Shown: one piece after another, positions 25,497 to 31,299 of the stretch
How the letters are laid out: every line of letters starts with the position of its first letter
How positions within the stretch are numbered: the stretch's first letter is position 1
From: Anaerolineales bacterium
GTDB lineage: Bacteria; Chloroflexota; Anaerolineae; Anaerolineales; UBA11858
DNA: 32,015 nt
Direction of reading: 5' to 3'
Assembly (NCBI GenBank): GCA_018335275.1
Contig: JAGXKM010000017.1
Span: 1-32,015 of the forward strand
The notes under the pieces: generated by a model
Databases searched by the model: none
Told to the model about the DNA's origin: nothing
Seen by the model: only the letters and a program-made list of their open reading frames with translations
Position numbers and translations under genes: made by a program

Positions 25497-27257
25497 TCAC
25501 TTACCGTTGGTCCAGGCGTAAACTTGGTCAAGTTCTTCATCCGACATGGACCACACCTCGTTATGCGGCGGGAGCTTTTCGTAGCGCATGAATTCCGGAA
25601 GACGATCATCCTGGGCCGTGAATCCGGCTTTCTTGTTGAATTCACGCTCCATGCGCAGGATTTCTTTTCCTACATCGATCACGTCATCTCCGGTGATGTC
25701 TAATCCAGTCACACCCGCCACGGATTCCGCCATCCCCTCCCAGCCAGATGAGATATCCAGGATCGGGAAGGCGATGAACAGGCAGTAGCCGGTGCTGTCC
25801 ACAAAGGCGGTGGCAGCCTGGAAAGTGAGGGATAAATCGGATTTCCCTTCCTCGTCAAGGGGGTCGACTTTGCCTCCCACCCCGGCGATCTCGGGGGCGA
25901 TGGTGTAGCCGGCGGTGTGGTCAGCGCCCATGGGGGACGTGGCGTAGGTGACTCCGATACCTTTGATGGCACGCGGTTCGTAAGCGGGCATGGATTGACC
26001 CTTTACAGTAGGTACGCGGTGCACGCCGAAGGCTTTGGCGGTGGCTTCGACGCCCTGTCCGTAGATGCGTCCCAGGGGGGACATTTCCCGGATCTCGTCG
26101 AAAAGTGCCAGGGCTGCTTCCTTATCGCCAAATTCAATCTGACCGCCTTCCATGGCAATGGCAATCGTGTTCCCGGCTTCGATGGTGTCCAGGCCCAGAT
26201 CATTGCACTGGTAGGTCATCTCTGCCACATAATCCAGGTCGTCGATCCCACAGTTGGCACCCAGGGCCCAGGCGGTCTCATATTCCACAACTGAAACTAC
26301 CGCTTCACCCTCTTCGTCGGGGTAAATATTGGAGCATTGGATGATGCATCCGGGATGGCATCCGTGCCCGGTCATGCCCTCCCCGCCGCGCTTTTCCACC
26401 ATCTCAGCTACTCTTTCTCCTGAGATATCTGCTGCTCCTTCGAATTGGCCGGCGCTGAAGTTGCGGGTGGGTAATCCGCCAGCTTCGTTGATGATATTCA
26501 TCAGTACATTGGTGCCGTAGGTGTTCAGTCCGCCATCCGGCTTGGTAAGGTCATGCTCCATGATGGCATCACGGAGCTTGGTGCGGCCTTGCTTGAGGAG
26601 GTCCTCATCAGCTATGTCCACACCCGGTCCACCTTCATCATCGACGACGATGGCTTTCACGCCTCGAGCGCCCATCACGGCTCCCAACCCACCCCGCCCC
26701 GCGTAACGCCCCGGCTTTCCTTCCGGATCATTGACGCTGATGCCGGCATTGGAAAGTTTCTTCTCACCCACAGGTCCGATGCCGATCACGGCTGGCTTAT
26801 TGGGATATTGATCCCACAGGATCTCATCTACTTCATACATCCCTTTCCCGGCCAGGTCAGGGGCATCTTTGAATTCCACACCATCTTTGGTGATCACCAG
26901 CTGATACCACTCCCCATTCTGGGGTTCTCCTTCCAGAATGATGGCAGCCAGGCCGAGTTTGGCGATCTTCTTGGAGGAAAGCCCGCCGGAGTTGCTCTCT
27001 TTGATAGTTCCGGTCAGGGGGCTTTTCCCGCCAAAGGAGGTCCGGCCGCTGCTCGGCGCTGCGGGAGTGCCGGAGACCCAACCGGGGGCGATGACTAATT
27101 TATTGTTCGGCCCTAACGGATGGCAGGTGGGCTCCACCTCGTCCAAGACGATGGCGGATGTCAGGCCGCGGCCGGCCCATTTGGACCACTTTTCAGGGAT
27201 ATCCTCATACACGGCCGATTGATCCGACATGTTGATTCTCAATATTTTTCGCGACAT
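25497..27257 (-). CDS. aor: Aldehyde:ferredoxin oxidoreductase (tungsten/molybdenum)
   Basis: A 586-residue AOR-family enzyme that oxidises aldehydes to acids with ferredoxin, using a bis-pterin W or Mo and one 4Fe-4S cluster. The N-terminal domain shows KILRINMSDQS, WAGRGLTSAIV and GRTSFGGKSPLTGTIKESN, typical pterin-binding loops. Cluster ligands are C300, C304 and C308 (CHPGCIIQC) and C492 in DSTGYCLF. The first spacing is C-x3-C rather than the C-x2-C of the Pyrococcus enzyme. ATG 27257 is used because AAGGAGG lies eight bases before it; the frame is open further upstream but without support. It sits between two ubiquitin-like genes in a three-gene operon. The true substrate is unknown. 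Confidence 0.92.
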   Translation of the reverse strand: MSRKILRINMSDQSAVYEDIPEKWSKWAGRGLTSAIVLDEVEPTCHPLGPNNKLVIAPGWVSGTPAAPSSGRTSFGGKSPLTGTIKESNSGGLSSKKIAKLGLAAIILEGEPQNGEWYQLVITKDGVEFKDAPDLAGKGMYEVDEILWDQYPNKPAVIGIGPVGEKKLSNAGISVNDPEGKPGRYAGRGGLGAVMGARGVKAIVVDDEGGPGVDIADEDLLKQGRTKLRDAIMEHDLTKPDGGLNTYGTNVLMNIINEAGGLPTRNFSAGQFEGAADISGERVAEMVEKRGGEGMTGHGCHPGCIIQCSNIYPDEEGEAVVSVVEYETAWALGANCGIDDLDYVAEMTYQCNDLGLDTIEAGNTIAIAMEGGQIEFGDKEAALALFDEIREMSPLGRIYGQGVEATAKAFGVHRVPTVKGQSMPAYEPRAIKGIGVTYATSPMGADHTAGYTIAPEIAGVGGKVDPLDEEGKSDLSLTFQAATAFVDSTGYCLFIAFPILDISSGWEGMAESVAGVTGLDITGDDVIDVGKEILRMEREFNKKAGFTAQDDRLPEFMRYEKLPPHNEVWSMSDEELDQVYAWTNGK

Positions 27258-27282
27258 CGTGCAGCCTCCTTGTGCTGTCTGA

Positions 27283-27651
27283 TTAGCGCCGTTCCTTGTC
27301 CGTTCTCCCGTAAACATTTTGCATGCTTCCATGCTTTTTCATAGCTTTCTGGAGTTGGTCAGACATGTGAATGCCGTCCCGGTATTGATAGGGCCACATG
27401 TGGGTTGTGGAAAAGATCCCTATATGATCACCATCGTCAAGCGCAGCATCTTTCGAAGCGTATAATCCCGGTGCGTCATGGAGAACAGCATTGATGAACA
27501 GATAGCCACGGTCATCTGGGGAGATACCCAATTTCTGCAGTAGATCACCTACCGTGGCTTTTTCGGTCAGGTTAACGTCCTGTGAGGCAACATGGCTCCC
27601 TCCCGCGAAGTGAGCGATATCGCCGTAAAGTGTGACGTCAACGGTAATCAT
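27283..27651 (-). CDS. Ubiquitin-like (MoaD/ThiS-type) protein without C-terminal Gly-Gly
   Basis: A 122-residue protein. Residues 1-85 fit a beta-grasp fold: ITVDVTLYGDIAHFAG, ATVGDLLQKLGISPDDRG, LFINAVLHD, and LDDGDHIGIFS. Where sulfur carriers end in Gly-Gly, this protein continues with THMWPYQYRDGIHMSDQLQK and a basic tail. It is probably not a sulfur donor but a structural or chaperone partner, possibly for the adjacent oxidoreductase. It is the first gene of the operon, 25 bases before aor, behind an extended -10 promoter. ATG 27651 has a weak ribosome site. Confidence 0.7.
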   Translation of the reverse strand: MITVDVTLYGDIAHFAGGSHVASQDVNLTEKATVGDLLQKLGISPDDRGYLFINAVLHDAPGLYASKDAALDDGDHIGIFSTTHMWPYQYRDGIHMSDQLQKAMKKHGSMQNVYGRTDKERR

Positions 27652-27815: not shown

Positions 27816-28988
27816 CTAATAGATCGGCATGTCCTCTTTGACATCCCGGGCCCAGGCGTTAATGCCCCCTTTCAGGTTTTTCACTTTCCGGAAGCCGGCA
27901 GAAGCCAGGATTTCCAGAGCGCGTGTGGAACGCGTGCCGGATTTGCAGTAGAGCACGATCTCATCCGCGGTGTCCAGCTCGGACATACGGGAGGCGACTT
28001 CTCCCATGGGAATCAACTCTGAACCTTCGATGTTGGAAATTTCCTGCTCATGGGGTTCGCGGACATCGATCAATCTTATATCTTCCCCGTTTTTCAGTTT
28101 TTCCTCAAGTTGGGAAGCGGTGATGTCCCATTTTTCCCCGGCGGTGCCTTCTTCGTGGTCGTGGGCAGGCATGCCGCAGAATTCTTCATAGTCGATCAAT
28201 TCTGTGATCTCAGGATGATCGCTGCAAACTTTGCAGTCCGGGTTTTTTTCAAGGTTCACAAATTCGAAGGAGGCGTCCAGGGCGTCATACAGCAGCAGTT
28301 TTCCACTCAGATTCTCGCCGATACCCAGGATAAGTTTGAGCGCTTCTGTAGCCTGGATGGAGCCAATCGTCCCCGGCAGCACACCCAGCACGCCGCCTTC
28401 CGCGCAGGAAGGGACCAATCCGGGTGGTGGGGGTTCTGGGAAGATGCACCGGTAACAAGGGCCGCCGTCCGCGTTGAAGACGCTGGCCTGGCCGTCGAAA
28501 CGGAAGATGGATCCATAGACGTTGGGTTTCCCAGTCAAGACACTGAGGTCATTGATCAGGTACCGGGTGGGGAAGTTATCCGTGCCGTCTATGATCATAT
28601 CGTAGGGCTCAGCAACCTCAAAGGCGTTCTCGGAAGTCAAGGGGTCGCTGTACACATCGACCTGAATTTCGGGGTTGATGTCCAGCATCCGGTCCCGTGC
28701 GGAGTCCGTTTTCAGATCTCCTAACCTTGATTCGCCGTGGATGACCTGGCGCTGCAAATTGGTAAAGTCTACTGTGTCATAATCGACAATGCCGATCCTG
28801 CCTACGCCAGCAGCTGCCAGATAGAGCAGAACTGGAGATCCCAGGCCGCCGGTACCGACGACAAGGACAGAAGCAGCTTTGAGCTTTTTCTGCCCTTCCA
28901 GGCCGACATCTGGAATCAGCAGATGCCTGGAGTATCGATGGATCTCTTCATTCGATAAGTCAGGGAGAGTGTCCTGTTCTTTTGTCAT
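27816..28988 (-). CDS. moeZ: MoeZR-type adenylyltransferase/sulfurtransferase (ThiF/MoeB + rhodanese)
   Basis: A 390-residue two-domain enzyme that adenylates the C-terminal glycine of ubiquitin-like carriers and then loads sulfur. Residues 1-260 form the E1-like domain: nucleotide loop VLVVGTGGLGS (42-51), IIDGTDNFPTR (132-142), zinc cysteines C178, C181, C252, C255, and C195 in the crossover region PSCAEGG. Residues 285-390 form a rhodanese domain with persulfide cysteine C348 in CKSGTRS. The architecture equals that of mycobacterial MoeZR, which thiocarboxylates CysO. ATG 28988 overlaps the cysO stop as ATGA, and a GGTGG encoding the carrier's Gly-Gly lies 11 bases upstream as possible ribosome site. 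It is the last gene before a good terminator. Confidence 0.93.
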   Translation of the reverse strand: MTKEQDTLPDLSNEEIHRYSRHLLIPDVGLEGQKKLKAASVLVVGTGGLGSPVLLYLAAAGVGRIGIVDYDTVDFTNLQRQVIHGESRLGDLKTDSARDRMLDINPEIQVDVYSDPLTSENAFEVAEPYDMIIDGTDNFPTRYLINDLSVLTGKPNVYGSIFRFDGQASVFNADGGPCYRCIFPEPPPPGLVPSCAEGGVLGVLPGTIGSIQATEALKLILGIGENLSGKLLLYDALDASFEFVNLEKNPDCKVCSDHPEITELIDYEEFCGMPAHDHEEGTAGEKWDITASQLEEKLKNGEDIRLIDVREPHEQEISNIEGSELIPMGEVASRMSELDTADEIVLYCKSGTRSTRALEILASAGFRKVKNLKGGINAWARDVKEDMPIY

Positions 28989-29269
28989 ATGGCTGCTTGT
29001 CCACCGGCGATAGAGGGGATGATCTTCAGGATGTCTTCTTCATCCAGCTTCGTTTCCACGCCTTGTAACTGGCGGATATTGTCCTCGTTTAAAAAGAGGT
29101 TGACGAAGGGCCTCAACTCGCCGGAATCGTCGTAAAGATGCTTTCTCAGGTTTGGATGTTCTTGAATCGTTTTCTGCAGAACTTCATCGACATTTTGACC
29201 CTGCACCTTAATGTTGCTCTTGCCATCTGCGTAAGGGCGGAGTGGGGTTGGGATTTTTAATGTAGTCAT
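28985..29269 (-). CDS. cysO: CysO-like ubiquitin-like sulfur carrier with C-terminal extension
   Basis: A 94-residue beta-grasp protein resembling mycobacterial CysO: IPTPLRPYADGKSN near the start, ELRPFVNLFLNEDNIR in the centre, and EEDILKIIPSIAGG near the end. CysO thiocarboxylate is the sulfur donor used by CysM to make protein-bound cysteine. Here four residues, QAAI, follow the Gly-Gly, so the translated form cannot be activated until they are removed. The JAMM protease of the same operon is the obvious candidate. Its stop overlaps the moeZ start. ATG 29269 has AAGGAAAAG upstream. A ThiS- or MoaD-role cannot be excluded, but the gene neighbours point to cysteine synthesis. Confidence 0.88.
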   Translation of the reverse strand: MTTLKIPTPLRPYADGKSNIKVQGQNVDEVLQKTIQEHPNLRKHLYDDSGELRPFVNLFLNEDNIRQLQGVETKLDEEDILKIIPSIAGGQAAI

Positions 29270-29378: not shown

Positions 29379-29669
29379 TTAACAGCCTTCTTGTTGGACA
29401 ACTTTCTCGCAATGAGAGGCGGGAAGGATGTTCACGGAGCCAGCCGTCTCAAAGGGGCGCATGAACTCGGATACATTTTCCTCGTCGTCTGCTTCCAGGA
29501 TCAGGTTGAAGGTGTGTTTTCCATTGATGACCGCGTCTGCGTGAAGCTTGACGCCGAACTTCCTGGCGTTTTGGGGTTGTAAATGGTTGAGCAGCATATT
29601 GCCTTTTTTGGGGTCTTTCGCGGGGCAAGTTGCTGCGTCATGTGTGTGCTGTACAAAAAAGAGCGACAT
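29379..29669 (-). CDS. Small Cys/His-containing protein of unknown function in the cysteine operon
   Basis: A 96-residue protein. It begins MSLFFVQHTHDAATCPAKDP, then has a ferredoxin-like alternation of strands and helices (ARKFGVKLHADAVINGKHTF, NLILEADDEENVSEFMRPF), and ends ILPASHCEKVVQQEGC. Three cysteines and several histidines near the two ends could bind metal or carry a persulfide; that is inference. It has a GAGGT ribosome site and sits 25 bases after the JAMM gene, so it belongs to the operon. I do not recognise a named function. Its place among sulfur-carrier genes suggests a role in sulfur delivery or its control. Confidence 0.72.
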   Translation of the reverse strand: MSLFFVQHTHDAATCPAKDPKKGNMLLNHLQPQNARKFGVKLHADAVINGKHTFNLILEADDEENVSEFMRPFETAGSVNILPASHCEKVVQQEGC

Positions 29670-29694: not shown

Positions 29695-30120
29695 TTAGTC
29701 GACCTGTAATGTTTCTTTTTCAAATCCGGATCGATCATCTTTCAGGCGCCACGACCGGGATCCGTTGGCGCGTCCGTCACGGACGCTGGTAATCAGATAT
29801 GAATACCAGGGGATGGCCCATTCCCTGTCGAAGTCCGAAGGCCGGTCAGGATGGTCGGGATGGGAATGAAAGATGCCCACAATGCTCTGATCGCGTTTTT
29901 CTGCCACTTCTTCCCCGTAAACCATGTCTTCAGCGGTAAGCAAATAGCGGTGATGTCGTTCAGCCTGCTCCCGGGCATTCGTCAAGGGTAAAATGCTTTT
30001 CACCTCCCGCTGATCCTTTTCGTGTTCCCCCAGGAGAAGACCTGCTCCCTCTTCCGGGTAGGACTCTTCGCCGTGGGCATGGATCTCATCAAGGAGTTCC
30101 CGGGGCAGTCTTATTTTCAT
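29695..30120 (-). CDS. mec: JAMM/MPN+ metalloprotease, Mec-like
   Basis: A 141-residue zinc peptidase. The JAMM set is complete: E24 in YPEEGAGLLLG, H85 and H87 in FHSHP, then seven residues to S95 and D98 (SDFD). In mycobacteria Mec cuts CysO-cysteine to release cysteine and regenerate CysO-GG. In the related QbsD system a JAMM enzyme trims residues behind Gly-Gly of the carrier. Both activities would make sense here because the cysO product has a QAAI tail. ATG 30120 overlaps the cysM stop (ATGA, 4 bases), so the two are translationally coupled; an upstream in-frame GTG at 30132 is less likely. It is cytoplasmic, with no signal peptide. Confidence 0.92.
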   Translation of the reverse strand: MKIRLPRELLDEIHAHGEESYPEEGAGLLLGEHEKDQREVKSILPLTNAREQAERHHRYLLTAEDMVYGEEVAEKRDQSIVGIFHSHPDHPDRPSDFDREWAIPWYSYLITSVRDGRANGSRSWRLKDDRSGFEKETLQVD

Positions 30121-31073
30121 GATTCTTTCCACAATTCCTCGTCGCTGAGGTATTTAAAACCTGCATCAGGGAAGATGGTGACGAGGTTACCTCTATCCAA
30201 TTCCTCCGCTACCCTGAGCGCCGCGACCGCTGCTGAACCGGAGGAGACACCTACAAAATAACCCTCTTCCCTGGCAAGCCTGCGCACCATACAATAGGAC
30301 TCTTCTGTGCTGACATGGATGATGCGGTCTGGAGTGGTGGGGTCATAGATGCCTGGCTGGATGGCGGATGCCATATGCTTTAACCCTTCCACGCCATGCA
30401 GCGGTCCGTCAGGTTGGACACCGATGATCTCAATCTGGGGCAGATTCTGGCGCAGGTAACGCGCCACACCGGTTAAGGTTCCAGACGTTCCCAATCCGGC
30501 GACAAAATGGGTGATGCTCTGTCCCGTTTGCTGAAGGATTTCCGGCCCTGTGGTCTGGTAATGGGCTTTCCAATTGTTGGGGTTGTCGTACTGGTTGGCG
30601 TAGAAATATCGACCGGGTTCCTGTTTCGATAACTGCATCGCCTTTTTGATCGCCCCATCCGTGCCCTCTAAGGGGTCAGTGAGGATTAATTCAGCGCCCA
30701 GGGCTTCCAGAATCTGTATTCGTTCTTTGCTGGCATTCGAAGGCAGGATAAGGGTGACAGGGATGCCCAACGTGGCCCCGAATGTCGCGTATGCGATCCC
30801 CATATTCCCGGATGTGGAATCTAAAAGATGTTGACCCTCTGAGAATTCTCCCCTTTCAAGGGCTTCTAAAATGATGTTCAGGGCGGGGCGGTCTTTTACG
30901 GAACCGCTGGGATTAAACCACTCCGCTTTGGCGTACAGGCTCACCTGCGGGTTAAGGTGCTGCCCGATTTTTTCTAAAGGCAGAAGAGGGGTGTTCCCCA
31001 CCAGACTGGGCAAACTGCTGCTGATAATGCTCTGCGTTTCTATTTTCTCTAATACGTTTATCTGCGAGTTCAT
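30117..31073 (-). CDS. cysM: Cysteine synthase CysM (CysO-dependent type inferred)
   Basis: A fold-type II PLP enzyme of 318 residues, close in length to mycobacterial CysM. K60 in WFNPSGSVKDRPA binds PLP, STSGNMGIAYA (87-97) is the substrate loop, GLGTSGTLTGVARYL binds the cofactor phosphate, and SSGSAAVAALRVAEEL is the late loop. Mycobacterial CysM uses O-phosphoserine and CysO-thiocarboxylate rather than acetylserine and sulfide; the same choice is inferred here only from the co-transcribed mec, cysO and moeZ. A cystathionine beta-synthase-like or ordinary CysK role is the alternative. ATG 31073 follows AAAGGTGG. The gene is preceded by a long structured leader with a Cys-rich peptide. Confidence 0.93.
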   Translation of the reverse strand: MNSQINVLEKIETQSIISSSLPSLVGNTPLLPLEKIGQHLNPQVSLYAKAEWFNPSGSVKDRPALNIILEALERGEFSEGQHLLDSTSGNMGIAYATFGATLGIPVTLILPSNASKERIQILEALGAELILTDPLEGTDGAIKKAMQLSKQEPGRYFYANQYDNPNNWKAHYQTTGPEILQQTGQSITHFVAGLGTSGTLTGVARYLRQNLPQIEIIGVQPDGPLHGVEGLKHMASAIQPGIYDPTTPDRIIHVSTEESYCMVRRLAREEGYFVGVSSGSAAVAALRVAEELDRGNLVTIFPDAGFKYLSDEELWKES

Positions 31074-31080
31074 GGGCCAC

Positions 31081-31207
31081 CTTTAAAAATACAAACGGCC
31101 AACGTTCACTTGTGGGCAAATTTTCCGTCCAAATTCATGCGGAGTTCGTATCTGCCCATTTTTGTCCGTTGACCGTTTAGACTTTTTGAGCAGATCTACG
31201 AATTCCG
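31081..31207 (-). promoter_or_regulatory. Putative cysteine-responsive transcription attenuator
   Basis: Two alternative RNA stems are visible on the minus strand. Stem A joins CGGAATTCGTAGATCTGC (31190-31207), which contains the leader stop codon, to GCAGATACGAACTCCG (31140-31155): about 15 pairs in three blocks. Stem B joins AAACGGTCAACG (31167-31178) to CGTTGGCCGTTT (31093-31104): 12 pairs with one G-U, followed by GTATTTTT. GGGCA (31153-31157) with TGCCC (31114-31118) may fold within the loop of B and would exclude A. B's left arm lies in the loop of A, so A and B conflict. A ribosome at the leader stop would mask A and allow B. Confidence 0.6.
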
Positions 31208-31249
31208 CCACATACAGGTGCAACTGCAGACCATGAAACGCATCTCCAT
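31196..31249 (-). CDS. Cys-rich leader peptide of the cysM operon
   Basis: A 17-codon frame, MEMRFMVCSCTCMWRNS, in the leader between promoter and cysM. Three of its residues within five positions (8, 10 and 12) are cysteine. It ends with TAG inside the first arm of stem A of the proposed attenuator. The predicted transcript start near 31265 leaves only about 15 nt before the ATG and no clear ribosome site, so initiation might be weak or nearly leaderless; ATG at codon 3 is an alternative. Its length, Cys cluster and position mimic the leader peptides of amino-acid operons. It is too short for statistical support, so the case rests on context. Confidence 0.6.
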   Translation of the reverse strand: MEMRFMVCSCTCMWRNS

Positions 31250-31271
31250 TTTTATGATTTCGTTGATATAT

Positions 31272-31299
31272 ATTCTACCCCTTTCTCCTGGCTTGTCAA
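31272..31299 (-). promoter_or_regulatory. Promoter of the cysM-mec-cysO-moeZ operon
   Basis: On the minus strand TTGACA (31294-31299) and TAGAAT (31272-31277) are 16 bases apart. Transcription should start near 31265, giving a leader of about 190 nt. Confidence 0.75.

Follow-up and report, generated by a model that had tools for sequence, protein, structure and literature searches.

A probable cysteine-codon transcription attenuator upstream of cysM in Anaerolineales and related Chloroflexota

Analysis of the stretch of DNA considered here (32,015 nucleotides, hereafter the window) indicates that its cysM operon is very probably preceded by a ribosome-mediated transcription attenuator sensing charged tRNA-Cys. 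This best explanation is inferred from sequence alone: termination, read-through and a response to cysteine have not been shown, and no transcript, ribosome or growth data stand behind it. The parts of the element, their conservation and the mutual exclusion of two RNA stems, A and T, through a common arm are shown. The leader displays the features of an attenuator: (i) a leader ORF with a start codon, a ribosome site and a stop codon, (ii) Cys codons located before cysteine and sulfur genes, (iii) two mutually exclusive RNA structures and (iv) an intrinsic terminator between the ORF and the gene. We infer that the cysteine-codon attenuator is very likely real and widely used, and that it represents a known principle and not a new one. 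It provides a concrete, testable mechanism of cysteine control for a large, mostly uncultured bacterial group.

Organization of the cysM leader

All parts of the attenuator and the cysM operon lie on the minus strand, starting at 31299 and continuing past the start of cysM at 31073 (Table 1). The transcript start was not mapped and is expected near 31265. Folding of the 206-nt leader gave -65.4 kcal/mol (z = -4.0), a value that none of 200 shuffled sequences equalled.

Table 1. Features of the putative attenuator and of the operon downstream in the window
Feature	Position	Strand	Details or basis
Sigma-70-type promoter	31299-31272	-	TTGACA (31299-31294), 16-nt spacer, TAGAAT (31277-31272); 11/12 consensus matches
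GGAG ribosome site of leader ORF	31247-31244	-	Sequence; same position relative to ATG in close relatives
Leader peptide ORF, 12 codons	31234-31196	-	MVCSCTCMWRNS then stop; C-x-C with in-frame start and stop conserved in relatives; ATG at 31249 in same frame
Regulatory Cys codons	31228-31226, 31222-31220, 31216-31214	-	UGC-AGU-UGC-ACC-UGU; last two are the conserved pair
Stem A (antiterminator)	31139-31208	-	A1: GCGGAATTCGTA 31208-31197 with TACGAACTCCGC 31150-31139; A2: ATCTGC 31195-31190 with GCAGAT 31155-31150; A1 and A2 together -27.4 kcal/mol
Stem T (inner part of terminator)	31113-31158	-	TGGGCAGAT 31158-31150 with ATTTGCCCA 31121-31113
Stem B	31092-31179	-	TAAACGGTCAACG 31179-31167 with CGTTGGCCGTTTG 31104-31092; B + T nested hairpin, -36.4 kcal/mol
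U-run TATTTTT after stem B (intrinsic terminator tail)	31085-31091	-	Sequence
cysM ribosome site	31077-31084	-	AAAGGTGG; sequence; outside stems A, T and B
cysM-type cysteine synthase (PALP family), first gene controlled	30117-31073	-	PF00291, 7.7e-74
mec-like JAB peptidase	29695-30132	-	Prok-JAB match
DUF3303 protein, small gene between mec and cysO	29379-29669	-	Domain match
cysO-like ThiS/MoaD-fold sulfur carrier	28985-29269	-	Domain match
moeZ-like ThiF + rhodanese adenylyltransferase/sulfurtransferase	27816-28988	-	Domain match

A preliminary description of this region had proposed a cysteine-responsive attenuator before cysM, made up of a TTGACA/TAGAAT promoter, a 17-codon frame with three Cys codons (ATGGAGATGCGTTTCATGGTCTGCAGTTGCACCTGTATGTGGCGGAATTCGTAG, 31249-31196, peptide MEMRFMVCSCTCMWRNS) and two stems, A and B. 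All of these parts are present, and its location of the stop codon within the first arm of A, and of the left arm of B in the loop of A, held on sequence and folding. Its placement of the leader start at the first ATG (31249) is probably wrong. The third ATG (31234), which opens a 12-codon ORF, is the likelier start as judged from the sequence, because the GGAG motif fits it properly as a Shine-Dalgarno site and close relatives use this start; the first ATG overlaps that motif. The poor ribosome site, listed as a weak point, is thus answered by a good one for the corrected start codon. The proposal as a whole largely held, as an inference.

Stem A is extended beyond A1 by A2 (ATCTGC 31195-31190 with GCAGAT 31155-31150) and overlaps the end of the frame. 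Stem T, which the preliminary description missed, competes directly with A: its 5' arm is common to the 3' side of A, and because it also serves as the 3' arms of A the two stems are mutually exclusive. Stem B is built on a core of 12 pairs including one G-U (AAACGGTCAACG with CGTTGGCCGTTT), followed by GTATTTTT. Stem T sits inside B and closes most of its long loop, so that the objection raised against this loop is largely answered. The possibility of a pseudoknot between A and B instead of exclusion is answered as well, since A excludes T outright and exclusion does not depend on that question. Weak points remain in the window: no Us follow stem T, and the U-run of B, already judged modest, is still so.

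When the growing transcript of the window was folded with the 5' arm of A free, A was the optimal structure until the right arm of B had been made; with a ribosome at the stop codon, T formed, and then B + T. In the full-length leader, B + T is more stable than A. A fold beginning five bases into A1 no longer shows stem A.

Three observations concern the surroundings of the operon. The DUF3303 gene, whose role in the pathway is unknown, also adjoins mec in four other loci (L004, L017, L022 and L023). Just downstream of the moeZ-like gene, the window carries a gene for an aldehyde ferredoxin oxidoreductase-like protein (25497-27332), a call that rests on an NCBIfam match well below cut-off, and a small gene upstream of it (27283-27651) without an NCBIfam match. 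A Mutator-family transposase gene truncated by the contig end (31553-32015, plus strand) is divergent from the cys operon.

Conservation of the leader ORF and its cysteine codons

Thirty-seven leaders went into a covariance model (R1), which then served to align 100 leaders (alignment A4). An in-frame start within 20 codons was found in all 100, and a stop 7-8 codons beyond the first Cys codon in 93. The Cys codons are arranged as C-x-C instead of an adjacent run, 95 leaders having two of them, and UGC-NNN-UGU-NNN-NNG-CGGGG is a recurring pattern. Between the paired Cys codons the residue is unconstrained (L, I, R, M, S, T and others). We infer that the leader ORF is under codon-level constraint. 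A clear Shine-Dalgarno-like match was seen in only 48 of the 100 leaders. Immediately upstream, 82% of 99 leaders have a promoter with at least 10 of 12 consensus matches, compared with 4% of shuffles.

The first Cys codon of the pair is UGC in 90 leaders and UGU in 10, and the second is UGU in every one of the 100 in the model-based alignment, compared with 29% UGU among the Cys codons of neighbouring genes. Model R1 was trained on UGU-only leaders; the preceding peptide searches, in which the codon was not fixed, likewise gave UGU. No RNA pairing partner was seen for this codon (31216-31214 in the window), and the question is raised of why the last Cys codon is always UGU. Given this invariance despite the lower use of UGU nearby, sulfur-dependent tRNA modification, and with it the sulfur status as a whole, may be a further input to the switch. 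This bolder reading, in which the element would report tRNA-Cys decoding of the wobble codon UGU besides cysteine supply, is regarded as unlikely.

Conservation of the RNA stems

RNAalifold on a MAFFT alignment (A2) gave no useful structure, because the A2 arms of stem A were shifted by 2-3 nt between families and a gap in CCCC-GC had been placed wrongly by MAFFT. The pairs of the model were assigned manually, and counting was done on the model-based alignment. In stem A, 82.9% of the cells are paired, compared with 43.8-61.0% after sliding the partner 1-3 columns; both sides have changed in 80 cells (27.9 in shuffles), and the covariation score is 0.237 against 0.146 +/- 0.007. The counting alignment was fitted to model R1, and the related sequences are not independent. 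Because such an alignment favours pairing, an arm-swap control was run: the own A1 arms of a leader pair better than arms swapped between species in 89 of 94 leaders. Typical A1 partners are GCGGGG/CCCCGC, GCGAGGG/CCCUCGC and GCGGAGGC/GCCUCCGC, the window having GCGGAAUUCGUA/UACGAACUCCGC.

The terminator side was also found to recur. With a ribosome assumed at the stop codon, the 3' arm of A2 finds a new partner downstream in 81 of 94 leaders (86%), compared with 52% after shuffling of the downstream part. In 78% of leaders, against 37% of shuffles, a downstream U-run is preceded by a hairpin of -10 kcal/mol or better. The score for a stem resembling B before a U-run attains in 53% of leaders a level found in 1.3% of shuffles, and compensated arms occur in relatives (GGCCAACAGA/UCUGUUGGCC, GCAGUCAACGG/CCGUUGACUGC and GGCCAAAUAGCGAA/UUCGCUAUUUGGCC). 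Of what the preliminary description would have relatives share, the small frame and its Cys codons are kept, stem A covaries, and about half of them have a version of B whose arms have changed in a compensatory way.

Proposed mechanism

With ample Cys-tRNA, the ribosome would run to the stop codon and cover the 5' arm of A; the common arm would then pair into T, B would close over T and transcription would end before cysM. With Cys-tRNA in short supply, the ribosome would wait on the Cys codons, leaving the 5' arm of A free, and A would form once transcribed. Stem A, once formed, would trap the common arm in its stem and the left arm of B in its loop, and polymerase would read into the operon. 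In the absence of any translation, the design predicts read-through. This direction of control, in which stalling gives read-through, is inferred from the geometry and from known attenuators and has not been measured. As the full-length leader is more stable as B + T than as A, read-through must be kinetic, with A forming first and lasting, as in other attenuators.

The footprint of a ribosome extends about 12 nt ahead of its A site; counted from the first base of the last Cys codon, the 5' arm of A1 begins 8 nt further on. A1 would thus stay free with a ribosome on the earlier codon of the pair, whereas one on the later codon would cover about 4 bases of A1, and one at the stop codon would cover all of A1 and the start of A2. 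The partial masking of A1 by a ribosome on the last Cys codon counts against the mechanism, as does the loss of stem A from the fold that begins five bases into A1.

Alternative explanations

In the first alternative, nascent-peptide arrest, the conserved C-x-C-x-x-R-G end of the peptide would stall the ribosome in response to a ligand and the RNA switch would follow. In its favour, R (98 of 100 leaders) and G (87 of 100) are strongly conserved after the Cys pair. Against it, the R-G codons make up the A1 arm and vary in step with their pairing partner, the residue between the Cys codons is free, and in three Caldilineales-type loci the stop codon precedes CGGG, that is, the R-G codons. Since these codons vary with the pairing partner and follow the stop in those loci, their bases appear to be kept as RNA and not as peptide. 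Peptide arrest was rejected as very unlikely, the peptide varying while the pairing is kept.

Translational attenuation, in which stalling would expose or hide the cysM ribosome site as proposed for mycobacterial polycysteine leaders, is likewise given very little chance. Mycobacterium smegmatis provides a known case of such control by Cys codons (Canestrari 2020, as cited in PMC13236596 and PMC9031893), and the cysM ribosome site of the window immediately follows the U-run. However, this site is in no stem, many relatives have tens to more than 200 nt between the U-run and the gene, and terminator-like hairpins are enriched.

A ligand-binding riboswitch or T-box with a chance ORF would account for a structured, conserved leader before metabolic genes, but is very unlikely: outside A, conservation is highest at Cys codons that share their frame with a start and a stop, and the first of them shows a synonymous UGC/UGU change. 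Curated Rfam covariance models at the gathering score gave no match at the leader positions of the window or of 20 relatives. Matches at E <= 10, such as mir-2943 and an archaeal sRNA, were at chance level and were rejected.

Comparison with known systems

The transcription attenuator preferred here resembles those of trp, his, ilv and leu operons in having a leader ORF with codons for the pathway amino acid and an exclusive antiterminator and intrinsic terminator before the first gene. It differs from them by a C-x-C pair in place of a codon run, by a two-state design whose untranslated default would be read-through, and by a terminator composed of an inner stem T and an outer stem B, the left arm of B lying in the loop of A.

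Leader peptides with Cys codons have been described before cys genes of Mycobacterium, Propionibacterium and Bifidobacterium, the mycobacterial ones without terminators (Seliverstov 2005, PMC1262725), and in M. smegmatis polycysteine leaderless ORFs were shown to attenuate in response to cysteine (Canestrari 2020, as cited in PMC13236596 and PMC9031893). As in the present leaders, Cys codons occur there in a short ORF upstream of cysteine or sulfur genes. The actinobacterial and mycobacterial leaders have runs of Cys codons, leaderless ORFs and control described as translational, without conserved hairpins or terminators in mycobacteria, whereas those of Chloroflexota, another phylum, have an apparently Shine-Dalgarno-led ORF, a C-x-C pair, a covarying antiterminator and an intrinsic terminator. 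In the window, the predicted transcript start, placed from the promoter position only, lies near 31265 and the ORF has its GGAG site. Cysteine attenuation would thus operate here with an antiterminator/terminator pair, which is absent from the published mycobacterial cases.

CysM, CysO and Mec form a known gene set of Mycobacterium tuberculosis. The window carries the same set as this pathway (PMC3227635), for which no attenuator of such design was found in the literature searched. That literature, mostly without subscription papers, yielded no earlier report of a cysteine attenuator in Chloroflexota, which does not prove absence; the preliminary description knew of none for a CysO operon in this phylum.

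Distribution and downstream genes

A frame ending in C-x-C-x-x-R-G-x-stop lies upstream of cysM at nearly every locus from relatives of the same order, and also in assemblies named as Chloroflexi, Anaerolineales, Ardenticatenaceae and Thermoflexales. Model R1 matches 139 of 396 genomes of the class (E <= 0.01). Among 400 genomes drawn from the phylum, matches outside the class were limited to two weak ones (L176 and L177), which were rejected as they lack the Cys codons. For the distribution beyond the phylum, the only basis is nine loci titled as other phyla (Euryarchaeota, Thermoplasmata, Acidobacteria, Poribacteria and others), and the leader pattern is absent from these nine.

The element is not restricted to a position directly before cysM. 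In the Caldilineales-type loci (L052, L056 and L062) it lies about 2 kb upstream of this gene, and other matches (L149, L155 and L160) precede an operon of the order cysO-moeZ-cysM. Sixty loci were taken solely for their match to R1, and the next gene is a sulfur or cysteine gene in 55 of the 58 that could be assessed for downstream genes. Model R1 holds no gene information, so this result provides independent functional support. On the cysteine side, the downstream genes are cysteine synthase (cysK/M) with or without serine acetyltransferase (cysE), mec, cysO and moeZ. Others encode a two-domain rhodanese, sometimes followed by a class-V aminotransferase of cysteine-desulfurase type, sulfite reductase, a YeeE-type sulfur transporter, DUF4395 proteins, siroheme functions, and homoserine O-succinyltransferase (metA) with Cys/Met PLP enzymes. 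Three matches with HypF/HypD and SH3-domain neighbours (L116, L151 and L156) are probably false.

Although data on a cysteine response are lacking, these positions make it very likely, by inference from sequence alone, that the same element controls several sulfur and cysteine operons and defines a class-wide regulon in Anaerolineae and allied Chloroflexota. As a cis-element it marks cysK/M, cysE, CysO-pathway, sulfite reductase, rhodanese, sulfur-transport and metA genes, and model R1 offers a means of annotating sulfur genes whose role is unknown, such as those for DUF4395, DUF3303 and YeiH-type proteins.

Some loci deserve separate mention. DUF4395 is the first gene behind the Cys attenuator in four loci (L124, L131, L148 and L078), a position that points to a role in cysteine or sulfur metabolism. 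Upstream of cysM in L012, the promoter, the Shine-Dalgarno site and the terminator-like end are kept, and the Cys pair and stem A are missing; the middle of the leader seems to have been lost by deletion, and this locus could be a natural attenuator-less operon. Finally, SAM-I riboswitches occur near a Cys-attenuated operon in two loci (L022:2920-3032 and L042:4588-4755).
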